From contig JAJHRB010000003.1 of the NCBI GenBank assembly GCA_020833025.1, forward strand, positions 1 through 42,980: a stretch of 42,980 nucleotides of DNA, in the 5' to 3' direction. Below are positions 27,160-41,359 of this stretch, piece by piece. The DNA comes from Thermoproteaceae archaeon (GTDB lineage Archaea; Thermoproteota; Thermoprotei; Thermoproteales; Thermoproteaceae). Position numbers and translations under genes: made by a program. The notes beneath the pieces are model-generated. The model was not told where the DNA came from. It made no database searches and saw nothing but the letters and a program-made list of their open reading frames with translations. Each line of letters opens with the position of its first letter. Positions within the stretch are counted from its first letter, which is position 1.

Positions 27160-27173
27160 CAATGCATAAATAC
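27160..27173 (+). promoter_or_regulatory. Shared promoter element CAATGCATAAATAC
   Basis: Starts 32 nt before ATG 27192; matches the element at 29703 and 33584. Confidence 0.55.
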
Positions 27174-27191
27174 TGGGTTATATTTCTGGGC

Positions 27192-29129
27192 ATGTTAATA
27201 CAGCGGCGCGTCCGCCCGGTATACCCGTTCCCGGCAATTGTGGGCATGGAGGACGCGAAGCTCGCGCTGATGGTCGCCGCGGTTAACCCCTCTGTGGGCG
27301 GCGTGCTGCTCCGCGGCGACAAGGGAACCGGGAAGACGACGCTTGTCAGGTCATTCGCCGACGTGCTGCCGGAGGAGGAGGTCGTGGCGGGATGCCCGTT
27401 CAACTGCCACCCGGACGACCCGCGGCTCATGTGCGACGCGTGCTACGAGAGGTGGTCGCGGGGCGAGCCGCTCTCGCGGGCAAAGAGAAAAATGAGAGTG
27501 GTCGACCTCCCGCTCTCAATCACTGTCGACAGGCTGGTGGGCACCCTGGACATAAAGCGGGCTCTTAAGGAGGGAATCCGGGCGCTGCAGCCCGGGCTGC
27601 TTGCAGAGGCCAACCGCAACATACTGTACATCGACGAGGTGAACCTCCTCGACGACTACGTAATTGACGTGCTGCTCGACGCCGCCGCCTACGGCTGGAA
27701 CATAATAGAGAGGGAGGGCGTATCGATCAAGCACCCCGCCCGCTTCATTCTCGTCGGCTCGATGAACCCGGAGGAGGGAGAGCTCAGGCCGCAGCTCCTC
27801 GACAGATTCGGCCTCGTGGTCGACATCGAGGCGCCGAAGGACCCCGAGATAAGGGCGGAGATCGTCAGGCGGGTTGAGGAGTACGAGGCGGATCCCTTCG
27901 CGTTCTACGAGAAGTGGAGGCCGAAGGTAGAGGAGATCAGAGAGAGAATAGTGAGGGCCAGGGAGCTCGTCGGCAAGGTCGTAATCCCCGACGACATGCT
28001 GAGATTCCTCGCCGAGACCGTCGTCAAGATGAACGTGAGGACTAGCAGGGCCGAGATCATTACGGCCAGGGCGGCGAGAGCTATAGCGTCCCTCGACGGC
28101 AGGACCCGCGTGACGGCTGAGGACCTCAAGAAGGCAATGGAGCTGGCGCTGAAGCATAGGATAAAGAGCAGGCCGCTAGAGAGGCCGCCCCCTCCGCCCC
28201 CTCCTCCCCTTAACGTGCTGTCGATGATATGGAGGGGGCACAGGAGGGGGGAGGGCCTGAGCGGTAGGGAGCGCGGGGAGGGCGAGCAGAGGGAGGCGCC
28301 GGAGAGGAGGAGGGGGCAGGGGAGGGGCGACCCCCCGCTGGCCAGCCCGCACAAGCACGACTCGGGCGTGGGCCAGATTCTCGACGTCGAGCGCGCGCTC
28401 GGGCTCGAGAGGAGCAAGACGCCTGAGATGCCGCGGGGGCTGAGGTCGAGGCACTCGTGGAGGAGGGTTGTTGGGGGGCACGTCGGGATTCCGTACATGG
28501 CCGTTCCCGGCACCGGCGACGACGTGGACATAGCCGCGACGATCACGCACGCAGCGCTGAAGAGGCCCGGAGGGCCGCTGGAGATAGCCGACGACGACCT
28601 GATGGTGCGGGTCAGGAGGGCGAGGGCGCCGCGCGTGATGTTAATACTGCTGGACACGAGCGGCAGCATGGGATTCGCCAGGAGGATAGGCGTGGCCAAG
28701 GGCCTCGTGTACAGGCTGGCCGAGGAGGCGTACGTGAAGCGGAGCTACATCGCGCTCGCGGCGTTCCGGGGGGACGGCATTGACTACTTCCACCCGCCGA
28801 CGCGCCACTACGAGAGGATAGTGGAGGAGCTCTCGAGGCTCCCGCACGGCGGCTCGACCCCCCTCTCCGCCGCGCTAAAGTTCGCAATAGACTTCATATC
28901 GAGGCTCAAGCTCAAGCTGAGGGGCGACTACTGGGTCTACCTAATCACCGACGGCAAGGCCAACGTCCCGCTGCGCGATAACATAAGGGAGGAGGTGGCA
29001 GAGCTCGCGGCGGGGCTCTCGAAGCTTGCCAAGCTCGTCGTGTACGACGCAAGTCCCGGCTCGCTCTACCCGGGAGTGTCGTACATAGGCGTGCTCGCGC
29101 AGTACGCCCATTCTGTCGAGAGAGTCTAG
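27192..29129 (+). CDS. ChlI/ChlD (BchI/BchD, CobST-type) fusion: AAA+ ATPase plus vWA chelatase subunit
   Basis: [69 protein letters not shown], Pro-rich linker. Confidence 0.95.
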
Positions 29130-29139
29130 CCGGCGGCCG

Positions 29140-29560
29140 TCACCTGGCGCGCCTCTCAGACGGCCTCAGCCTGCCCGGCGGCTCTCCCCTGAATCTCCAC
29201 AGCCCCCTCCCGAACGACTCCACGGCTATCTCCAGCTCCTCGGCCAGCATGTCGCTTATTAGGGGCTCGTCGGCCAGCGACGACACGAGAAGGTCTGTCA
29301 AGACCTCCTTAGACTCTGCGTCGCCGGCAATCACCTTGACGAGTGCCGCGCGCGGGTAGAACCAGACCCTGAGGGGGCCTCCTGCCGTCTCTACAACTAG
29401 TTCTCTCGACTCGTCGGAGGGCGGCCACAGGCCGAGCGCCCTGGCAGTGCTAATCGGGAAGCAGCTGCGGGGTCGGCGCCTCGAGGCCGCTGTTGAGCAG
29501 CGCCACTTCCTCCACCGACCTCCCCCCGGCCCTTATCCTCACTCTCAGCCTGATGGCCAC
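29140..29560 (-). pseudogene. Clan AA (retropepsin-like) aspartyl-protease-family protein, one-nucleotide frameshift
   Basis: VAIRLRVRIRAGGRSVEEVALLNSGLEAPTPQLLP / PISTARALGLWPPSDESRELVVETAGG...LISDMLAEELEIAVESFGRGLWRFRGEPP; frames join if one base is removed from the GGG near 29456-29460. TATA at about 29585. Confidence 0.6.
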
Positions 29561-29702
29561 TGAGAGCCGCCTTAATCCTGCCGATATAAGCGAAGGCCTT
29601 CGGCGCGATCCTGCCCATTCTCACTCTCCCCGCCACGCGCTGCCCGGCGCCGGGCTTAATAGCTGTGAGGCCGCCTTAGTACATGTATGCGTTACCGCGC
29701 GT

Positions 29703-29717
29703 CAATGCTTTAATACA
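29703..29717 (+). promoter_or_regulatory. Shared promoter element CAATGCTTTAATACA
   Basis: Starts 32 nt before ATG 29735; identical 15-mer at 33584-33598. Confidence 0.65.
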
Positions 29718-29734
29718 TTCACGTATTTAGCAGT

Positions 29735-31213
29735 ATGTCATCAAGAGTCCTCGCCGCGCTGCTGACGCTGCTGCTCGCGCCGCTGGCGTGCGCGAGCGCA
29801 GTCGCGGTGCAGCTGAGAGTCCCCCACGGCGCTGCCGGAGATGTCGTGCACGTGCAGCCCAACGCGACGCTGGGCGGCATTGTCGCCGTGGAGTCGCGGC
29901 AGGACGGGGCCCTGCACTGCCGCGCGAGGCTCGTCTGTCATAACTGCACCGTGTCGCCGGAGGAGTTCACTGCCGTGCTGAGGCTGAGGCACGACGCGAG
30001 GGCAGTTCCCGTCGAGGTCAGGCTCGGCGGCAGTACCGCCGAGCTGCGCGCGGTGGTCGAGTGCAACGGCAGTGCCGCCGTCGCGAGGAAGCTCTTCATT
30101 CCGAGAGCCGAGTGGAGAGTCGGCGTCGAGGTCGTGGCTCCCTCAGACATATTCTGCTCCTTTGACCAGAGGTACGAGCCGTATACATTTATCGTGAGGC
30201 CCAGCTACGTGCCCGAGCTAATCCGGCTCATCACTCAGGAGTCGCGGGCGGGCGGGCATCCTGACCTGATAGGGCTCGTGTGCATAAGGGTCAACAGCAC
30301 GGCAGGGCTCAAGTACACGGCAGTATTGATGTTCGCGAGGCCTGACGGCTCCCCGGCGCCCATCTCGACCCAGTCGCTGCTCCTACACCCCGAGCTGCCG
30401 CAGCAGCACGGGACTGCCGTCGTGCCGGACATCGAGGGCTATCAAGTCGTGCCGCTGTTTTACCCCGGACACGCCGAGCAGGCGGCCGGCAGGTACAGAG
30501 TGACCCTCCTCCTGATACCGCAAGGCGGCTCGAGGCCCGTCTACAACACAACGTTCTACATCACCGTGATATCGACGCGGGGAGAGGCAGTGGCGCTGGC
30601 AGCGTTCTCCGCCTTTGTTGCAATTCCCGCGATGGTCTACCTCCTGTTCCGCTTCGCCAGGAGGGCCACGCTCGGCGACCTGGCCTTCGCGGCGCTCATG
30701 GCCCCGTTGCTCTTCGTGACCGTATACATACCTGGCAGTGTGGCGCGCGGCATCGGAGCGTTTCTCGGCCCGTTCGACTGGCTCGTGTACGGCATTCTCT
30801 TCGACACCGTCGAGTTCGCCCTGCTCGCAATTGCCGTCACGCTCAGGCCGAAGCCCGGCGTGTTGACGGCAATATTCTTCTTCCGCTGGCTGCTAAGCGT
30901 GCTTTACTTCGGCAGGGCCAGCGTGATATCCGCGCTCTGGCTGGCCACGTCGGCGCTCTTTTACGAGGGCGCGCTGTACCTATCCGGCGCCACCCGGGGG
31001 AGGCCGACCTTCGCGCGGGTCGCCGTCCCTCTGGTGCTCGGAGGGGCCTTTGACAGATATGTCGACATGGTCATGTACATGGCCCTGTACAGGCTGTACT
31101 ACGCCGGCTGGTACCTCCTGAGCTACGTGATCGGGACATCTGTCTACTCGGCGCTCGGGGCCCTGCTCGGGAGGCAGTACGCGAGGGTCGTGAGGGGGGC
31201 GCTCCATGAGTGA
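29735..31213 (+). CDS. Membrane protein with signal peptide, about 270-aa predicted extracellular domain and C-terminal multi-TM domain; candidate ECF S-component
   Basis: Exported N-terminal region, C-terminal hydrophobic helices; overlaps the EcfAA' gene. Confidence 0.7.
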   Translation: MSSRVLAALLTLLLAPLACASAVAVQLRVPHGAAGDVVHVQPNATLGGIVAVESRQDGALHCRARLVCHNCTVSPEEFTAVLRLRHDARAVPVEVRLGGSTAELRAVVECNGSAAVARKLFIPRAEWRVGVEVVAPSDIFCSFDQRYEPYTFIVRPSYVPELIRLITQESRAGGHPDLIGLVCIRVNSTAGLKYTAVLMFARPDGSPAPISTQSLLLHPELPQQHGTAVVPDIEGYQVVPLFYPGHAEQAAGRYRVTLLLIPQGGSRPVYNTTFYITVISTRGEAVALAAFSAFVAIPAMVYLLFRFARRATLGDLAFAALMAPLLFVTVYIPGSVARGIGAFLGPFDWLVYGILFDTVEFALLAIAVTLRPKPGVLTAIFFFRWLLSVLYFGRASVISALWLATSALFYEGALYLSGATRGRPTFARVAVPLVLGGAFDRYVDMVMYMALYRLYYAGWYLLSYVIGTSVYSALGALLGRQYARVVRGALHE

Positions 31214-32747
31214 GGTGGCCCTCAGGAAGGTCAGGGTGGTCTACCCGGGAGGCGTTGTGGGGCTTGAGGTTGACCGGCTCGAGATCGGGGGCCCTGGCCT
31301 CTTCCTAATTGCCGGGAGGTCGGGCTCGGGGAAGTCCACGCTCGGCAAGGTGATCGCCGGGGTGATACCGAGGGTGGAAAAGGCAGAGGTGGCGGGAGAG
31401 GTCAGGGCGCCGCCCCGGGCGGCCTACCTGCACCAGTCGCCCTACGACCAGGTGTTCTCGACGTATGTTATCGACGAGTTCTTGCTTGCTAAGGAGCTCT
31501 CTGGCTCGCGCCTCGACGTGCTCGAGGCGGCAAAGCTCGTAGGCATTGAGGAGTTGCTGGGCGCGAGGACGTCGGAGCTCTCCGGCGGGCAGCTGCAGAA
31601 GGTCCTCCTCGGCGTCACGCACCTCCTTGACTTCCCGCTCTACGTCCTCGACGAGCCGCTCGCCCACCTGGACCCCAGGAGCGCGAGAGAGCTTCTCGGC
31701 GCCGTGGTCAAGCTGAAGAGGGACAAGACGGTGCTGCTCATAGAGCACAGGCTCAAGGAGGTCTTGCAGATCTCCAGACACATAGACATGATAATTTTGC
31801 TCGACGGCGGCAGGATTGTCGACATAATGAGGCCCGAGGACGTGTCTGCAAAAGCTTGGCTTCTCTCGCGGCTCGGGCTGAGGCTCCCGCTGAGCCTGAA
31901 GTGCTCGCTGAGGCTAGGAGTCCCCGCGGCTGACCCCCTCGACCCCGCGCCTGTAGAGCGGGCCTTGGAGCTCTACAGGCCGCGCGGCAGCGCTGGCGAG
32001 GCGGGCGAGGCCGTGGTGGAGGTGAGGGGGCTGCACTTCTCTTACGGGAGGAGGGTTGTGTTCGCGGAAGCCGACTACGCGGCCAAGTCAAGGGCGGTGT
32101 ACGTGCTGTTCGGCAGGAACGGCAGCGGGAAGTCGACATTCTTGCACATACTCGCCGGGGTGCTCAAGCCAAGGAGAGGTCTCGTGCGCGTCGCGGGGAG
32201 GGCGGCGTACGTGCCCCAGAACCCCGACCTCACGCTAATGCACGAGACCGTGGAGAAGGAGCTCCTCAGCAGGACGAGGGCGTGGGCCAGGTCGAGGGCC
32301 GAGGCCAGAGAGCTCGCCCTCAAGGTGGCCGACGCGCTGGGCGTGAGACAGCTGATGGGCAGGAACCCCCACGCGCTCTCCAGGGGCCAGAGGTTCAGGG
32401 TGGCGCTGGCCGCTGCGCTGTCCTCGCGGCCGAGAGTCCTCTTGCTCGACGAGGTGACCTCGGGGCAGGACGAGGAGAGCATCGAGGCTCTGGGCAGGGC
32501 GCTCCGAGAGTTCGTGAGAGAGGGAAACGTCGCAATTATCGCAACTCACGACGTCTACTTCGCGCTCGACTTAGCGGACCGCGCGTCCGTTATCGCGGGA
32601 GGCCGCATAACGGAGCCGAGGCCTGTCGGCGACGTGCTGACCGACGAGGGGCTCCTCGAGGCCGGCAACCTGGTCGCGCCGCCGCACTTAGAGATCTGTA
32701 AGAGGCGGGGCATGCCGCCGGTCAGGGAGAGGGAGCTATGCGGCTGA
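31206..32747 (+). CDS. ECF-type ABC transporter ATPase, two fused ATPase domains (EcfA-A')
   Basis: GRSGSGKSTLGKV + LSGGQLQKVLLGVTHLLDFPLYVLDEPLAHLDP; GRNGSGKSTFLHIL + LSRGQRFRVALAAALSSRPRVLLLDEVTSGQD. Confidence 0.95.
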   Translation: MSEVALRKVRVVYPGGVVGLEVDRLEIGGPGLFLIAGRSGSGKSTLGKVIAGVIPRVEKAEVAGEVRAPPRAAYLHQSPYDQVFSTYVIDEFLLAKELSGSRLDVLEAAKLVGIEELLGARTSELSGGQLQKVLLGVTHLLDFPLYVLDEPLAHLDPRSARELLGAVVKLKRDKTVLLIEHRLKEVLQISRHIDMIILLDGGRIVDIMRPEDVSAKAWLLSRLGLRLPLSLKCSLRLGVPAADPLDPAPVERALELYRPRGSAGEAGEAVVEVRGLHFSYGRRVVFAEADYAAKSRAVYVLFGRNGSGKSTFLHILAGVLKPRRGLVRVAGRAAYVPQNPDLTLMHETVEKELLSRTRAWARSRAEARELALKVADALGVRQLMGRNPHALSRGQRFRVALAAALSSRPRVLLLDEVTSGQDEESIEALGRALREFVREGNVAIIATHDVYFALDLADRASVIAGGRITEPRPVGDVLTDEGLLEAGNLVAPPHLEICKRRGMPPVRERELCG

Positions 32748-33553
32748 GCTTCACGGCAAAGCTCGCGCTGCTGGCAGCATTCAACGTGCTCGCAATAGCG
32801 CTCGACTACCTTCCCAACTTAATCGCGCTGGCGGCAGCGGCGGCCGCGATATGGGCCGCGGCGAGGCCCTCAGGCGACAGGCTGAAGCTCACGGCGCTCG
32901 TGGTGGTCCCGTCGGTGTGGTCCGTGGTCGTCTTACAGGGGCTATTCTACACGGGATGGCCCAGGACGGTCATCCTCACGATAATTCCGCCTGAGGCGCC
33001 CGTCCTCGGCTGGCTGACGGGCGGCGTCTACCTAACCTACCAGGGAATGCTGTACGGCCTGAAGCAGAGCCTCAGGATAGTCTCGGTAGCGCTCGTCGGC
33101 CTTGCAGTGGTGTGGACGTCGACGGAGAGAGAAATGATGGCAGAGCTCAGGCGCCTGCTGAGGGGCGCGACCCTGTCGGTCGGCGCCACTGTCGCGGCCA
33201 GGTTCTTCGACGTGTTCGCGCAGGACGCAAGGGCTGCGATGATAGCGTACAGGACGGCCGGCTACAGAATACTCGGCGCGAGCACGCTCAGACTGATCGT
33301 GCCCCTGGCAGTGCAGGTTCTGAGGAGGAGCTACGTGGTCACGCTCGCGCTGATAACGCGCGGGTTCAGCCCCGGGGTCAGGATCTCGTCAGGCGCGAGG
33401 CTAGGGGCCCTCGACATCGCGGCTATCGCCGCCTCGCTGGCAGTCGCCGGGACTGTCGGGCTGCTGAAGCTCCTCGCGCTGCTGTACATCATCGACGTGC
33501 TGTACATACCACAGCTGCGCGAGCTTTACTGGTACACAATCAATTATGTTTGA
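32738..33553 (+). CDS. ECF transporter transmembrane component (EcfT/CbiQ-like)
   Basis: Multi-TM, ARAAMIAYRTAGYRILGASTLRLIVPLAVQVLRRSYVVTLALITRGF coupling-helix-like Ala-Arg region; overlaps the ATPase gene by 10 nt. Confidence 0.85.
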   Translation: MRLSFTAKLALLAAFNVLAIALDYLPNLIALAAAAAAIWAAARPSGDRLKLTALVVVPSVWSVVVLQGLFYTGWPRTVILTIIPPEAPVLGWLTGGVYLTYQGMLYGLKQSLRIVSVALVGLAVVWTSTEREMMAELRRLLRGATLSVGATVAARFFDVFAQDARAAMIAYRTAGYRILGASTLRLIVPLAVQVLRRSYVVTLALITRGFSPGVRISSGARLGALDIAAIAASLAVAGTVGLLKLLALLYIIDVLYIPQLRELYWYTINYV

Positions 33554-33583
33554 TTCCGACCACGTTTCCCATACAGAGTGGAA

Positions 33584-33598
33584 CAATGCTTTAATACA
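33584..33598 (+). promoter_or_regulatory. Shared promoter element CAATGCTTTAATACA
   Basis: Identical 15-mer to 29703-29717; 32 nt before the in-frame GTG at 33616. Confidence 0.65.
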
Positions 33599-33615
33599 AC
33601 AACGTGCGCATAGGC

Positions 33616-35325
33616 GTGAGGAGGGCGGGCATAGTAGCAGGCGTGATAGCCGCCGTTATAATCGCGGCGATCGCGGCGCTGCTGGCGCTGCCGAAGGCCC
33701 CGGCGCCCAAGCCCAACGCCACCGTCTCGCTCCCAGCGGCGCCGGCCGCGCCGGGAATCTCGCTCGCGTGGCAGTCGCCGCCGCTGATTGAGAGAGGCTG
33801 GCTGGTGGAACATGGGATGTATGAGAGGGCGTGGACCTGGTGGACTTTCAGCAAGGGCATTGTCCAAGTCTCGCCCGACGGCAGGTATGTCGCCGTCGGC
33901 ACGCAGAGGGGGGAAGTGGTTGTGCTTGACAGAGACGGGAGGGAGGTCGCCAGGTTTACATACGGCGCCGGGCGCGTGCCGTACTACGTTCTCGAGTTCT
34001 CGCCCGACGGCAGGTACCTCGCGGTCGGCATTGCGTCCAGGGAGGGAGAGCTGATAGTCTACGACACGTCGACATGGCGCGAGGCCGCGCACTTTAACTT
34101 CTCCTCCTACCTTAAAGGCCCCTCGAACGCCACTGAGTCCGCAATACTGAAGCAGCCGTGGTACGGCATCCGGCCGACATTCTTGCTGTTCCGCGGCGAC
34201 ATTCTCTACGTCACGGTGGGCGAGCCTCACATAGACCCCGAGACCCAGTCGCCTGTCTACTTCAAGGTCGCGATGGACCTCTTCAAGCTGTACCCCGAGC
34301 TGAGGAGGAGGTTTCCGAACTTGACGTCATACGTCGCGGTGAGGTACGCCGGGACTCAGTGGTCTAGAGTACTCGCAATAGACACGAAGACATGGCGCGT
34401 GAGGTGGGTCTGGCCCAGGGAGGAGCCGGCCGAGACTATGATACCCAACCTCGCCTCGGACGCGGGGAGGAGGTACCTCGCCCTCTCGACGTGGTGGTAC
34501 GTGTCGCGCAGCGACCCATACAAGTGGCACAGCGGAATGCTGTTCGTGCTAAACGCGACTAGCGGCGAGCTGCTGTACGTATTTGACGTGCCTCCCTACG
34601 TGCCGTACTTCAACTATACCTCAATCTGGACGGCGCCGGCCTTCACTCCCGACGGGAAGTACCTCGCCTTTGCGACTGGCGATGGCAGGGTTTACGTGCT
34701 TGACAACCTGCGCTCTATTGCCGAGAGGGGGGCCGTCGTGCTCTGGGCCGCGTCTATCTCCGACGTCCTGCCGGCGCAGGTACTGCTCATACCGCAAAAG
34801 GGTGGAGAGACAAAGGTCATACAGTCGTACATATACACGTTTGGCGGCCTCGCGGGCATTGTGAACGATAGAGTGATCGCCTACACGTCCGCTACCTATA
34901 CCACCTACTGGGCGCCTGGAGTCGAGCGCAAGCCAGTAACGCAACATCCAAACCAAACGAAACTCTTCGTGTTTGACCTGAACGGGACGCTCCTCTACGT
35001 CGACAAGTTCCTCGGCAAGCCCGCATACGGCAAGGTCGTGCCGTTTGCGATATCCGGCTGCATGCTGGCCGTCGGCGTGGGGAATGATTGGGTGACAAGC
35101 GACGTCTCAATGATGGGGGTGTATGTCTGGGACGTCTGTAGACTGGCTCAAGTGGGTAGATTTCTGACTGTTAAATACGGGGTGCCTCTCGACGTGGCGA
35201 TGTCGGGCAATCGCGTGTATGTATTGACGGGGCTTATCAACGCAGCTCCCAGCGAGACGGCGCCGGCGAACATAATTGGCGAGTACCGGCTGCTCGCACT
35301 TGAGCTGGGCCGGCCGGCGGGGTAG
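33616..35325 (+). CDS. Exported/membrane-anchored beta-propeller (WD40/PQQ-like) protein
   Basis: N-terminal TM; repeated VSPDGRYVAVGTQRGEVVVLDRDG, FSPDGRYLAVGIASREGELIVYD, FTPDGKYLAFATGDGRVYVLD blades. Confidence 0.85.
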   Translation: MRRAGIVAGVIAAVIIAAIAALLALPKAPAPKPNATVSLPAAPAAPGISLAWQSPPLIERGWLVEHGMYERAWTWWTFSKGIVQVSPDGRYVAVGTQRGEVVVLDRDGREVARFTYGAGRVPYYVLEFSPDGRYLAVGIASREGELIVYDTSTWREAAHFNFSSYLKGPSNATESAILKQPWYGIRPTFLLFRGDILYVTVGEPHIDPETQSPVYFKVAMDLFKLYPELRRRFPNLTSYVAVRYAGTQWSRVLAIDTKTWRVRWVWPREEPAETMIPNLASDAGRRYLALSTWWYVSRSDPYKWHSGMLFVLNATSGELLYVFDVPPYVPYFNYTSIWTAPAFTPDGKYLAFATGDGRVYVLDNLRSIAERGAVVLWAASISDVLPAQVLLIPQKGGETKVIQSYIYTFGGLAGIVNDRVIAYTSATYTTYWAPGVERKPVTQHPNQTKLFVFDLNGTLLYVDKFLGKPAYGKVVPFAISGCMLAVGVGNDWVTSDVSMMGVYVWDVCRLAQVGRFLTVKYGVPLDVAMSGNRVYVLTGLINAAPSETAPANIIGEYRLLALELGRPAG

Positions 35326-35340
35326 CTCCGTTTTTTCATG

Positions 35341-35377
35341 CAATACTTAAATTCCGCTTTTCGCGTAATACTTAAAT
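35341..35377 (+). promoter_or_regulatory. Duplicated AATACTTAAAT element (35342-35352 and 35367-35377)
   Basis: Two exact 11-mers 25 bp apart; the second is placed as TATA for ATG 35399. Confidence 0.65.
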
Positions 35378-35398
35378 CTTGTAGAATTATTACACCCC

Positions 35399-36409
35399 AT
35401 GGGCTCCGAGGCGTTGCTCAAGCCTCCCGAGCCTCCTCCGGACGAGATTTACAGGATTGTGCTGCACGCGCAGGCCTTTTACGTGCTCGACGCTGCGCTA
35501 GAGCTTGACCTCTTCGAGAGGCTAAAGACTCCCAAGACTGCGGGGGAGCTGGCCGGGGAGCTGGGCACGGACCCCGCCCTGACGGAGACGGTGTGCGACG
35601 CGCTAGCCGCGCTGGGCCTCCTCAAGAAACGCGGCGGCGCCTACGAAAACTCAGCGCTTGCAAGTGCCTACCTCACGGAGGGCTCGCCCTACTGCATGAA
35701 GAACCTCCTGCGCCTGATGAGGTCGTCCCTGAGGGACAGGTGGCCCCGCCTTCTCGACGCGCTGCGCGGGAAGCCCGTCGGGGCGGGCGGGCGCGACCCG
35801 CGGCTCTTCACGCTGGCCGTGGCCGAGAGCGCGCTGGCAGGCGGCCTGCACGGGGTGGTGGAGGTGCTGAGGGAAATTGAGGACCTCAAGAGGGCCAGGA
35901 GGCTCCTCGACCTCGGGGGCGGCCACGGGCTTTACTCCGTCGCCTTGGTCAAGCTGTTCCCCCAGCTGCACGCCTACGTCCTCGACCTCCCCGAGGTTTT
36001 AGAGGTGGCCAGGGAAATTGTGAGCAGATACGGCGGGGACGTGATCGACAGGGTGCACTTCGTGCCCGCCGACTTCACGAGAGACGACATAGGCAGCGGC
36101 TACGACGTCGTTCTCGCCTCGCACTCCCTTTACGGCTACCGGGAGCGGCTCGCGGAAATCTTGAGGAAAGTGCACGCGGCGCTGAACGGCGGGGGCCTCT
36201 TCATATCGAATCACGCGCACAAGTCGCAGGGGCTGAGGGCCTCCCTCTTCGAGCTCCAGATAGCCATGGCCCGCAGGGGATTCTCGCTCTTCAGCGTGGG
36301 GGAGCTAATGTCGCGGCTCAGAGAGGCCGGGTTTGTCGTCGAGGACGTGGCGGTCGTGGGCGGCGCGTGGCCCTCGACGATAGTTGTTGCCAGGAAGCCG
36401 TTACAATAG
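35399..36409 (+). CDS. SAM-dependent O-methyltransferase (acetylserotonin/BchU-CrtF-like family)
   Basis: N-terminal wHTH dimerisation domain, LLDLGGGHGLYSVALVKLFP SAM motif, YDVVLASHSLYGY. Confidence 0.85.
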   Translation: MGSEALLKPPEPPPDEIYRIVLHAQAFYVLDAALELDLFERLKTPKTAGELAGELGTDPALTETVCDALAALGLLKKRGGAYENSALASAYLTEGSPYCMKNLLRLMRSSLRDRWPRLLDALRGKPVGAGGRDPRLFTLAVAESALAGGLHGVVEVLREIEDLKRARRLLDLGGGHGLYSVALVKLFPQLHAYVLDLPEVLEVAREIVSRYGGDVIDRVHFVPADFTRDDIGSGYDVVLASHSLYGYRERLAEILRKVHAALNGGGLFISNHAHKSQGLRASLFELQIAMARRGFSLFSVGELMSRLREAGFVVEDVAVVGGAWPSTIVVARKPLQ

Positions 36410-36431
36410 GCAAACCCCGCCCCCGGGCAGG

Positions 36432-37385
36432 TCAGAGCAGTAGCGGGAGGGCCGCCAGTAGCGTGAACGCCACGTGTGCGCCTTGTTGTATCAATAATAT
36501 TTTCACTCCGTCGCGCACCCCGAAAATGCCCACAAAGTAAGGTAGGAGAACTCTTAGGCTCAGCGGCACGGCGGAGAGGACATTGCCGAGGACGAGGGCG
36601 GCGACGACCTCTCTGTCTCCCATCGCGCCTGCGGCGCAGAGACCCGCGGCGGTCGCATACGCCGATATCGGGTTTACCATGTGCGCGGCGATTACGGCGA
36701 GGGCCTCTGGCCTCAGCGGCACGATGCCTCCCAGTGCCCCGGCGAGAGCCGAGAACGCCCCCAGCCTCGCGAGGAGCTCGACCGCTGCCATCGTGGCCGC
36801 GATGTTCGCAATCACTCTCAGCGCTCTTCTCCACGACTTTCTCAGCGCCTCCGTTAGAGCCCGCGAGAGCGGCGGCGACTCCCCGCCGGCGGCCACCGCC
36901 ATGAGGGCGCGCGAGGGCGGGGGCAGCAGCAGCCTCCCCAGCAAGGCGAAGAACGCTGTCTTGGCGAGCCCCGCGCCCACGAGAATGAGAAAGTAGGTCA
37001 GGCCGGCGGCGCCGAGGAGCCCGAGGAGTGGCGGCAGCAGGTAGGGCCAGTGCATTAGAATAGCCGGGAAGGAGTTCAGCATGATGGCTATGTACATCTC
37101 CCCCGTGCCTATCTCCCCCCTGTCTCTCAAGTCCCTTAGCATCGTGTAGGCAGCCGTCGGCGAGATGAAGGCAAGCGCGAAGGAGAGGGCGGCATGCGGC
37201 TTTAGGTGCGCGAAGCTCACCAGCGGCCTCACGGCGAGCGCTAGCCTGTAGGATGCCCTCCTGTAAGCGGTCAGCAGCTCCGCGAGCACGAACCCGAAGA
37301 GGACTGCAGGCGCCGAGACAGCAAGCGCTTTCGCGAGCTCCATACCCGGCATTTCTGGTGCTGCTGTGTTGCGCGTGAGCTGCAC
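36432..37385 (-). CDS. Nucleoside-recognition (Gate)-domain membrane protein, putative transporter
   Basis: Multi-TM; ALSFALAFISPTAAYTMLRDL and IAAHMVNPISAYATAAGL internally related segments. Confidence 0.7.
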   Translation of the reverse strand: MQLTRNTAAPEMPGMELAKALAVSAPAVLFGFVLAELLTAYRRASYRLALAVRPLVSFAHLKPHAALSFALAFISPTAAYTMLRDLRDRGEIGTGEMYIAIMLNSFPAILMHWPYLLPPLLGLLGAAGLTYFLILVGAGLAKTAFFALLGRLLLPPPSRALMAVAAGGESPPLSRALTEALRKSWRRALRVIANIAATMAAVELLARLGAFSALAGALGGIVPLRPEALAVIAAHMVNPISAYATAAGLCAAGAMGDREVVAALVLGNVLSAVPLSLRVLLPYFVGIFGVRDGVKILLIQQGAHVAFTLLAALPLLL

Positions 37386-37425
37386 CGTATGAAGTCTGCG
37401 CGCGAATTAAAGTGTATGAGGGAGG

Positions 37426-37440
37426 AAATGTTAAATAATC
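37426..37440 (+). promoter_or_regulatory. Promoter element AAATGTTAAATAATC, diverged relative of the shared element
   Basis: Starts 32 nt before ATG 37458. Confidence 0.4.
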
Positions 37441-37457
37441 GGGAACTTTCACACGCA

Positions 37458-38957
37458 ATGCTCGCAATCAAGACGGAGAAGGCGGGAAGGCTTGTCGAGA
37501 CGCTTAAGCTCGCCCTCGAGATCGTCGACAGGATCAGGGCGAGCGGGCCAGCTGAGACCGCCGGGCTCCTCGCGGGGCTCGAGGGAGGCTACGTGGAGCC
37601 GGGGCCCTCGGGCGCGCTGACGCGGGGCAAGGTTGAGGTGCTGCCCACTGGCAGGAACTTCTTTGCGGTCGACCCGACGCAGATCCCGACTCCCGCCGCG
37701 TGGAAAGTCGGCGTGGAGTCGGCGGAGAGGCTCGTAAGGTACTACAGGGAGAGATACGGGAGGTACCCCGAGAGCGTCGGCGAGGTCCTGTGGTCCATTG
37801 ACGCCTACAAGGCAGATGGGGAGCAGCTGTCGCAAATCCTGTGGCTGATGGGCGTCCAGCCAGTCTGGGCCGAGGACGGCAGCGTTAGGGGCGTTGAGGT
37901 AGTGCCGCTGGAGAAGCTGGGCAGACCCAGAATTGACGCTGTGGCCAGAATAAGCGGGATTGTCAGGGACACCCTGCCGAATTACGCCTACCTCATAGAC
38001 GAGGCGGTGTCAAAGGTAATAGCGCTTGACGAGCCTCTGGATATGAACTTCGTCAAGAAGCACTACTTGGAGACGCTTGAGAAGCTAAAGGCCGCCGGCG
38101 TTGACAAGCCAGAGGAGAGGGCCAGGGCCAGGGTGTACGGAGAGCCGCCGGGGGCCTACGGCGCGGGCGTCAACTACGCCGTGGAGGCCTCGGCGTGGAG
38201 GACAGACGAGGACCTCATGAAGGTGTGGCTCCAGTGGGGCAGCTACGCCTACACGCGCGCAATGTATGGAGAGATGAACGTCGAGGCGTTCGTGGCACAG
38301 CTCTCCAAGGTCGATGTAATAAACAGGAACCACATAAGCGACGAGCACGACATATTTGGCTGTTGTTGTTATTTCGCCTTCCATGGCGGCTTTTACAACG
38401 CCGTCAAGGCGCTGACGGGCAGGAGCGACATAGAAATAGTGACCGTCGACACCAGGGACCTCTCGAACATTGAAGTGCGGGGAATGAGGGAGGAGATAGA
38501 GAGAGTGGTCAGGGCCAAGCTCCTGAACCCCGTCTGGATCTCTGAAATGATGAAGCACGGCTATAGAGGGGCCAACGAGATCCAGAGGAAGATACTGCAC
38601 CTTTACGGCTGGTCCGCCACGACGAAGCTCGTCGACAAGTGGGTGTACGACGAGCTCGTGAGAACGTACGTGCTTGACGAGAGGATGCGCAAGTGGTTCA
38701 TGGAGAACAACATCTACGCGCTGGAGGAGATAGTCAGGCGGTTCATAGAGGCGGCGCAGAGGGGGCTGTGGAGGGCAGACGCGGAGACTCTTGAGAGGCT
38801 CAACGAGATCTACAGCGAGATCGAGGCGGTGCTCGAGGCCGACGTGACAGGCGAGGTGCAGGGAGGCTCAATAGACGTGTACACCCACGCCGACGTCCCC
38901 CAGTGGGGCGAGGCCGTTAAGAGGGTGGAGGAGGCCCTCGCCAGGGTGAGGAAATGA
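37458..38957 (+). CDS. CobN/BchH-type chelatase, C-terminal half
   Basis: LPTGRNFFAVDPTQIPTPAAWKVG, GRYPESVGEVLWSIDAYKADGEQLSQILWLMGVQPVW, LGRPRIDAVARISGIVRDTLPN; start MLAIKTEKAGR favoured by TATA spacing. Confidence 0.9.
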   Translation: MLAIKTEKAGRLVETLKLALEIVDRIRASGPAETAGLLAGLEGGYVEPGPSGALTRGKVEVLPTGRNFFAVDPTQIPTPAAWKVGVESAERLVRYYRERYGRYPESVGEVLWSIDAYKADGEQLSQILWLMGVQPVWAEDGSVRGVEVVPLEKLGRPRIDAVARISGIVRDTLPNYAYLIDEAVSKVIALDEPLDMNFVKKHYLETLEKLKAAGVDKPEERARARVYGEPPGAYGAGVNYAVEASAWRTDEDLMKVWLQWGSYAYTRAMYGEMNVEAFVAQLSKVDVINRNHISDEHDIFGCCCYFAFHGGFYNAVKALTGRSDIEIVTVDTRDLSNIEVRGMREEIERVVRAKLLNPVWISEMMKHGYRGANEIQRKILHLYGWSATTKLVDKWVYDELVRTYVLDERMRKWFMENNIYALEEIVRRFIEAAQRGLWRADAETLERLNEIYSEIEAVLEADVTGEVQGGSIDVYTHADVPQWGEAVKRVEEALARVRK

Positions 38958-41359
38958 AGAGGCTGGCATTCATAATCGGGTACGGCGGGGCTGCCCTCCC
39001 GCTTGTGGAGAAAGCCGCGGGCGAGGAGTGTAAGACGCTGGGTCTTGAGTGCGTTGCGGCAACCGACGTGACCGCGCCGCGGTACAGGCAGTTCATCGCG
39101 TCGGCAGACGCCATTTTCATCTACTCGCACCAGCTCTCCGACGACGTCGTCGAGGCAATAAAGGCGGCGAGGGAGCGCGGCGCGGTGGTGATATCTGCCA
39201 CGGACTACTTCTTCGACCTCGTAAACGCGCCGCCGCAGCTCGTGCTCGAGGCCCGGCGCTACTTTATAACAGGCGGCGAGGACAACTTCAGGGCGCTGGT
39301 CAGGCTCCTGGCAAGAGCCCTCGGCATGAACGTGGACGTCCCGCCGCTGAGGGAGGTCCCGTGGATGGGCGTCTACCACCCGAGGCTCGGCACGTTCACG
39401 TCGCTGGAGGAGTACCTCAGGGTTTACGACATACAGAGCAGGGAGGGAGTCGTCGGCGTGCTGTTCTACAGGACGTACTGGCTCTACGGCAACCTGGCCC
39501 ACGTGAACGCCCTGATAGAGGCGCTCGAGGCCGAGAACCTGGCCGTCGTGCCTGTGTTCACGTACGGCTTCCGCGACGAGAGTGTCGGCGCGCCCTCGGC
39601 GGAGGACGCCATCAGAGAGTTCTTCTTCTACAGGGGCGAGAGAGTAGTCAACGCCGTGATAAACCTCCTCTTCTTCTTCCTGCTGGACAGGGGCAAGTGG
39701 CACAGGAGGGCTGACAGGTTCAAGGTCGCCGAGACCGGCATCGCGCTGCTAAAGAGGCTGAACGTCCCGGTGATAACGCCAATAACGTGCTTCTATAGGT
39801 CCGTCGACGAGTGGGCTAAGGACCCGCAGGGCGTTGACTATCTGACGCAAGTTTACAGCGTGATAATGCCCGAGGTGGACGGCCTGATAGAGCCCGTCTT
39901 TTACGCGGGCGCCAGGCCCGCGCCGGACGGCACCAAGAGGTACGAGCCGTTCCTGGAGCACGCCAGGTACCTGGCCAGGAGGGTGAAGAGGTGGATCAAG
40001 ATGGCGAGGAAGCCCCCGTCGCAGAGAAAGATTGCAATCGTCCTGATAAACCCGCCGTGCAAGAACCTGCAGGCGAACATAGGCGTCGGCCTCGGCCTGG
40101 ACGTGCCGGAGTCCATCGCCAGGCTGCTCCACAGGCTCGCCGAGCTCGGCTACGACGTCGGCCCGAGGGATGCCCTGCTGAAGACGGGGCAGGAGCTCAT
40201 CAAGATGTTCCTAGCGAGAAAGGCCTACAGCGACTTCCGCTTCGCGAGCGTTGAGGACATAGTGATGAGCGGCGGCGCCGCCGCCTTCGTGGATTACGAC
40301 ACGTACATCAAGTGGTTCGAGGAGCTCCCCGAGGAGGCCCGCAGGAGGCTCGAGAGAGACTGGGGCCACCCGCGCGACGTCCTTGAGGGCCGCGCGCCGA
40401 AAGAGTTCGCCGGCATGGTGTACGAGGGGAAGTTCGTCGTGCCCGGCCTTCTATTCGGCAACGTCTTCATCACGCCCCAGCCTAAGTTCGGCTGCGCGGG
40501 CCCCGGCTGCGACGGCAGGATCTGCAGGATACTGCACGATCCCAACATTACGCCGCCCCACCAGTGGCTCGCCGTCTACAGGTGGATAACGAGAGTGTTC
40601 GGCGCGGACGTGGTAATACACTTCGGCACCCACGGGTACCTTGAGTTCAGGCCGGGCAAGGGGGTCGGGCTCGCGCCGTGGGACTGGCCGGAGATCTCGA
40701 TTGACGACGTCCCGCACCTGTACGTCTACGTCGTCTCGAACCCGATGGAGGGGGTGATGGCGAAGAGGAGGTCCTACGCGGTGCTAGTGGACCACATGTA
40801 CCCGCCGATGGCGCTGGCAGAGGGCCTCGAGGAGCTCGAGAGGCTTGTCAACGACTACGCCAAGTACAAGGCCCTGGGCGAGTTTGAGAAGGCAAAGATT
40901 GTGTATGAGGAAATCGTAAAGAAAGCGAAGGATAATCACGTCAGGATACCCGAAGGCGGAGACCCCGAGAAGGTCGTGGAGGAGGTCCACCGTTACATCG
41001 ACATGGTGAAGGGCACGCAGATAAACCTCGGGCTTCACGTCTTCGGCAGCCCGCCGGAGGACCCCGAGAGGCTGGCGCAGTACGCCGCGACGATACTGGC
41101 CTACGACACGGCGAGGGCCCCCTCGATTCGGAGGGTTCTTGCGGAGTACCTGGGCCTCGACTACGATGAGATGAGGAGGAGGCCTCTCGAGGTGAATAAG
41201 CTCGGCATGACAAACGCCGAGACCCTGAACCTGCTGTACAAGGCTGCCGTCGAGATAATCAAACAGCTCGTCTCAGCCCCGCGCTCGGAGGAGGCGATAC
41301 TTAGCGTCGCGGAGTCTGTTCTGCGGAAGCTCTTTGGCGCCAGAACCGCGCCCCTATGA
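38954..41359 (+). CDS. CobN/BchH-type chelatase, N-terminal half
   Basis: VVIHFGTHGYLEFRPGKGVGLAPWDWPEISIDDVPHLYVYVVSNPMEGVMAKRRSYAVLVDHMYPPM; ATGA overlap with the C-terminal-half gene. Confidence 0.9.
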   Translation: MKRLAFIIGYGGAALPLVEKAAGEECKTLGLECVAATDVTAPRYRQFIASADAIFIYSHQLSDDVVEAIKAARERGAVVISATDYFFDLVNAPPQLVLEARRYFITGGEDNFRALVRLLARALGMNVDVPPLREVPWMGVYHPRLGTFTSLEEYLRVYDIQSREGVVGVLFYRTYWLYGNLAHVNALIEALEAENLAVVPVFTYGFRDESVGAPSAEDAIREFFFYRGERVVNAVINLLFFFLLDRGKWHRRADRFKVAETGIALLKRLNVPVITPITCFYRSVDEWAKDPQGVDYLTQVYSVIMPEVDGLIEPVFYAGARPAPDGTKRYEPFLEHARYLARRVKRWIKMARKPPSQRKIAIVLINPPCKNLQANIGVGLGLDVPESIARLLHRLAELGYDVGPRDALLKTGQELIKMFLARKAYSDFRFASVEDIVMSGGAAAFVDYDTYIKWFEELPEEARRRLERDWGHPRDVLEGRAPKEFAGMVYEGKFVVPGLLFGNVFITPQPKFGCAGPGCDGRICRILHDPNITPPHQWLAVYRWITRVFGADVVIHFGTHGYLEFRPGKGVGLAPWDWPEISIDDVPHLYVYVVSNPMEGVMAKRRSYAVLVDHMYPPMALAEGLEELERLVNDYAKYKALGEFEKAKIVYEEIVKKAKDNHVRIPEGGDPEKVVEEVHRYIDMVKGTQINLGLHVFGSPPEDPERLAQYAATILAYDTARAPSIRRVLAEYLGLDYDEMRRRPLEVNKLGMTNAETLNLLYKAAVEIIKQLVSAPRSEEAILSVAESVLRKLFGARTAPL

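Follow-up and report, generated by a model that had tools for sequence, protein, structure and literature searches.

The NikR repressor has a two-headed DNA-binding architecture, and its operator in E. coli is GTATGA-N16-TCATAC (PMC7055735). In delta-proteobacteria the NikR sites take the form GTGTTAC-N13/14-GTAACAC or the reversed form GTAACAC-N13/14-GTGTTAC, the reversed order being known from Desulfotalea psychrophila and from one Desulfovibrio vulgaris site (PMC545781). An archaeal NikR homologue has been presented in published work as possibly zinc-responsive, which counts against NikR as the regulator considered below. In a limited search of open papers, neither a described operator for archaeal NikR nor an account of the regulation of the archaeal CobN/ChlI-D chelatase was found. 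The present analysis concerns a promoter element that recurs in a chelatase island of a heat-loving Thermoproteaceae archaeon, within a stretch of 42,980 nucleotides (contig JAJHRB010000003.1; hereafter the window). The element is read, with a probability of roughly 60%, as the upstream half-site of a candidate operator (G)TAATAC-N14-16-GTATTA(C) for a nickel- or cobalt-responsive repressor, most likely NikR. What the analysis establishes is that the site exists, how it is distributed and conserved, and that NikR is encoded in this genome; that the site is a true operator of some regulator appears likely from its sequence, and the assignment to NikR in particular is tentative, at a little under even odds.

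Promoter copies in the chelatase island

The copies of the element, their right half-sites and the genes that follow them in the window, together with the two one-mismatch copies elsewhere in the genome, are the following.

27160..27173, + strand: element CAATGCATAAATAC before the chlI-chlD fusion gene; left half-site CAATGC plus TATA part
27180..27185, + strand: possible right half-site ATATTT of the chlI-chlD promoter; 4/6 to GTATTA, spacer 14
27192..29129, + strand: gene for a ChlI-ChlD-type chelatase ATPase, putative cobaltochelatase subunit (TIGR02442, below its cut-off)
29703..29716, + strand: element CAATGCTTTAATAC before the ECF operon
29723..29728, + strand: right half-site GTATTT of the ECF promoter; 5/6, spacer 14
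29735..33553, + strand: ECF-type transporter operon (membrane protein without Pfam match, double ATPase, CbiQ-like T component)
33584..33597, + strand: element CAATGCTTTAATAC before the beta-propeller gene; right half 2/6, unconvincing
33616..35325, + strand: beta-propeller protein gene
35341..35354, + strand: distal copy CAATACTTAAATTC before the O-methyltransferase gene
35366..35379, + strand: proximal copy TAATACTTAAATCT, left half TAATAC, 33 nt before the O-methyltransferase start
35387..35392, + strand: right half-site TTATTA of the O-methyltransferase promoter; 5/6, spacer 15
35399..36409, + strand: O-methyltransferase gene (Methyltransf_2)
37426..37439, + strand: cobN C-half promoter AAATGTTAAATAAT, 32 nt before the start; an ordinary promoter and a poor member
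37458..41359, + strand: split cobN, C-half at 37458-38957, then N-half at 38954-41359
Contig C67: one-mismatch copy before an ABC substrate-binding protein gene (double Peripla_BP_2)
Contig C54, 4378-4391 (L004), - strand: one-mismatch copy CAATGCATAAACAC, 34 nt before a peptidase-like gene

The initial annotation had proposed an element shared by the first three promoters. The copies at 27160, 29703 and 33584 were found to be exact and in place, with 32 nt from the start of the element to ATG 27192, ATG 29735 and GTG 33616, respectively. The CAATG part was, as it had stated, absent from the other promoters of the window, being present at that position in 3 of the 25 found, namely the island trio. 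The two diverged copies before the O-methyltransferase gene were also recovered, and this promoter ranked third of 341 in the scan described below. The same could not be said of the supposed diverged member at the cobN C-half, which ranked 64th by log-odds with a right half of 3/6.

Several further features of the island were observed. An in-frame ATG at 27162, inside the element, could pass for the start of chlI-D; 27192 agrees better with the promoter spacing. Two separate genes encode the halves of CobN (window, L105, L107-L110, L167-L170), the C-half leading in the window and in G003 and the N-half in G004, G009 and Archaeoglobales. The own genome (G000) carries a second, full-length CobN-type gene (L111, C10:12930-17398), as well as truncated CobN-like pieces with in-frame stops (L112, C9:16372-16722) that resemble remnants or assembly breaks. 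No Rfam match was obtained within the window, and the reading as a cobalamin riboswitch was dropped; a promoter duplication was likewise dropped, since the two identical 15-mers showed no longer shared homology when read from the sequence.

Rarity of the element and its second half

The general promoter was described from genes called in 428 kb of the genome with a simple caller of our own, on which the promoter matrix was fitted, and from genome-wide pattern searches; in relatives, this caller missed several true starts (beta-propeller 1 of G003, binding proteins), which were placed by hand. In the sample, a TATA box lies about 26 nt before most starts, with an A-rich BRE upstream of it and C at -1; transcription therefore begins at or near the start codon, and the genome is leaderless. 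A consensus of about (c)AAaGyTTwwAwa results, and at the most frequent offset the element starts at -32. The spacing, the TATA part and the GC just 5' of it are thus general promoter features, which the element promoters share (TATA about 26 nt before the start, BRE upstream), and the near-constant distance loses the special significance first given to it, since leaderless spacing is found genome-wide.

What is not general is the frequency of the complete element. Exact CAATGCWTWAATAC occurs only at the three island sites in the 1.56-Mb genome, with about 0.09 exact copies per genome expected from the general promoter matrix, and one mismatch adds only the places on C67 and C54. When up to two mismatches were allowed, 34 matches were obtained genome-wide, compared with 7 for the reversed control. 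CAATGC was present in 3/6 island promoters versus 3/275 promoters elsewhere, and a comparable local trio appeared in 0/400 genomes with simulated promoter sets; since the matrix derives from genes we called ourselves and the motif was picked only once it had been seen, these chance figures are strong rather than clean p-values.

A second half-site was then scored against GTATTA at N14-16. The best right half reached 5/6 at the ECF and O-methyltransferase promoters, 4/6 at chlI-D, 3/6 at the C67 binding protein and 2/6 at the beta-propeller, the last two of the five own-genome sites being poor. A score of at least 4/6 was reached in three of the four matching window promoters, whereas ten further promoters carrying that left half all fell short of it (3/6 at most); in the background, 4 is reached by 3.4% of other promoters and 5 by 0.3%. 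Across the whole genome, the two-half pattern, which was chosen post hoc, is confined to the ECF and O-methyltransferase promoters. A direct repeat, AATRC-N3-AATAC, had been considered first; the inverted repeat fits Archaeoglobales, L180 and L182 better.

When 341 own promoters were scored with a matrix trained solely on sites from other genomes, the binding-protein gene ranked 1st, followed by the O-methyltransferase (3rd), ECF (5th), beta-propeller (6th) and chlI-D (9th) promoters; PEP synthase was also among the top-ranked, as were a few housekeeping genes. The CAATGCATAAACAC site on C54 has no right half and is probably a chance promoter match, the peptidase-like gene after it having been assigned by eye from sequence. 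A frequency before housekeeping genes equal to that in the island, which the initial annotation had named as evidence against a regulon, was not found genome-wide, though a few housekeeping promoters do have the left half (PEP synthase, AMP-kinase-like gene). The regulon proposed there is partly supported by these ranks and by the recurrence in relatives and Archaeoglobales, with the C-half of cobN excluded from it.

Recurrence in other archaea

Among 19 family genomes, the CobN/ChlI-D island was present in three congeners (G003, G004 and G009). The pattern YAATRCTTWAATA had 0-5 copies per congener genome, and its matches lay near cobN in 3/3 cases in G004, 3/4 in G009 and 3/4 in G003; as the pattern was broadened after the cobN copies had been seen, the independent part consists of the other matches. 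Copies of the TAATACTTAAATA type precede cobN, the ABC binding protein gene and hypA in G004 and G009, a YAATRCTTWAATA-type site precedes hypA in G002, and the genes downstream of YAATRCTTWAATA in G003 are fmdE-like, beta-propeller, a hypF variant and sulfide:quinone oxidoreductase (SQR). The genes around the congener sites include nikR, hyp, NiFe-hydrogenase and CbiMNQO; these assignments were made by eye, or with Pfam for the genes on which it was run. Where a congener has no cobN, the string stands before genes of other kinds, most often SQR, and a left half by itself is therefore not diagnostic. At -32/-33, CAATACTTAAATA or a variant of it was seen before SQR-like genes in several congeners (L123-L126, L130, L138), and SQR may belong to the same or to another conserved promoter class. 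In G003, the perfect palindrome AATACTACGTAGTATT is found at about 1070550, immediately 5' of the promoter of a binding-protein gene (L106).

In Archaeoglobales, TAATACTTAAATA(C/G) was found at four cobN promoters, further copies in those genomes lying inside coding sequence, and the left half at cobN is followed after 14-16 nt by GTATTA or a near match. The complete TAATAC-N14-16-GTATTA (26-28 bp) is exact at cobN of L167, L168 and L180. The cobN upstream regions fitted it with 0, 0, 0, 1, 2, 3, 4, 4 and 4 mismatches, compared with a minimum of 2 across 102 other genes of the same loci (p = 4e-5, slightly generous because a single contig enters twice, as L182 and L184). These two loci are identical and inverted on contig QMRC01000003.1, which suggests a palindromic assembly artefact in the public record. 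In a scan of 25 genomes, cobN-type promoters had exact inverted repeats in G041, G042 and G050 (two in the last), and a further one was located upstream of a NiFe hydrogenase in G047. The other exact repeats fell in coding sequence or had no assigned gene, and the reversed control also gave matches, so that single exact repeats elsewhere mean little. In L180 and in L182 the sequence separating the halves is a different one, yet both halves remain.

Candidate regulator and competing readings

In the proposed operator, the left half would lie over the BRE just upstream of the TATA box and the right half between the TATA box and the start. As the halves flank TATA with their centres about 21 bp from each other, a metal-loaded two-headed repressor bound to both would block TBP, TFB and RNA polymerase. 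When metal is scarce, the uptake genes (ECF, ABC binding protein) and those for tetrapyrrole metal insertion (ChlI-D, and CobN in relatives) would be transcribed. The candidate site is degenerate in the window (CAATGC), its right half missing at the beta-propeller and, outside the window, weak at the C67 binding protein; left-half copies before PEP synthase, SQR and the AMP-kinase-like gene count against the operator reading.

For NikR, the half-sites are separated by about two helical turns and form an inverted repeat of 26-28 bp, imperfect in the window, where NikR operators span some 27-28 bp, and nickel-related genes carry the site in relatives (hypA, hypF, hydrogenase); no site was found in the own hyp/hydrogenase cluster beside NikR. 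The own NikR, on contig C65, scores below the NCBIfam NikR cut-offs and keeps the pattern QH-x10-H-x-H-x5-C, whose residues we take to be the nickel ligands, in positions as in E. coli NikR. In the scoring across genomes, NikR was above the cut-off on the own C65 and in 13 of 14 genomes with cobN, two of those matches being weak or diverged; NikR_C was not found in G044, a site-bearing partial genome, and G045 gave a weak match only. NikR is also encoded in congeners without cobN. Autoregulation was considered and rejected, there being no good site before the own NikR and no clear autoregulatory site at NikR genes.

Another regulator, for instance one sensing cobalt or corrinoids, could use the same operator. 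This is possible, with appreciably less weight than the NikR reading: cobN, a cobaltochelatase-type subunit, is the most conserved target across phyla, NikR is not adjacent to cobN in Archaeoglobales, and one site-bearing genome lacks a NikR match, but hypA, hypF and the NiFe hydrogenase carry the site in relatives, the half-site and two-turn spacing resemble NikR sites, and a non-systematic look at the loci listed brought up no second regulator conserved next to cobN. It is doubtful that an undescribed cobalt/corrinoid regulon under a regulator other than NikR, common to Thermoproteota and Archaeoglobales, controls the CobN/ChlI-D chelatase and uptake. The element may otherwise be merely a strong general leaderless promoter, with a good BRE and TATA box at well-expressed genes, shared by chance or descent. 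Distance, TATA box and much of the string fit this, as do similar left halves at PEP synthase, S8e, SQR and other unrelated genes. It is nevertheless unlikely, given the simulated promoter sets, the clustering of matches near cobN, the right half in register and the conservation in Archaeoglobales and distant Thermoproteota; moreover, the general promoters of G003 and G004 favour T (66%) where the element has C, which argues that the element is not simply their best promoter. The initial annotation placed CAATG where BRE or a regulator would bind; that it forms a variant BRE recognised by one specific TFB paralogue is very improbable. CAATGC coincides exactly with the BRE, and the A at its second and third positions agrees with the general BRE preference, but the second half downstream of TATA would be left unexplained, as would the persistence of both halves in L180 and L182 around a different intervening sequence; an operator half-site is the better reading of the CAATG part.

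The candidate site shared by the matching chelatase genes of quite different archaea points to an uncharacterised metal switch. If the operator reading is true, one metal switch would link nickel and hydrogenase maturation with tetrapyrrole metal insertion. With a site conserved across two archaeal phyla and a named candidate regulator and targets, the questions of the archaeal NikR operator and of chelatase regulation both become testable.

Any novelty most likely lies in a variant of an operator type already described rather than in a new type. The general leaderless promoter of the genome is alike in position and TATA part; AATRC stands at the same place in about 10 of 294 other promoters, and 0/10 of these have a right half of at least 4/6. 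The E. coli NikR operator also has two 6-bp half-sites two helical turns apart, with a different half-site sequence and orientation, the half-sites here being in reverse order (PMC7055735). The delta-proteobacterial NikR operators are alike in the 27-28-bp inverted repeat and may be comparable in the nickel-related targets and, for the sites of Desulfotalea psychrophila and one of Desulfovibrio vulgaris, in the reversed order; their half-site GTGTTAC is one base apart from the GTATTAC found here (PMC545781). Unlike them, the candidate site predicted here from sequence has a spacer of 14-16, lies over an archaeal BRE/TATA and has chelatase (CobN/ChlI-D) targets.
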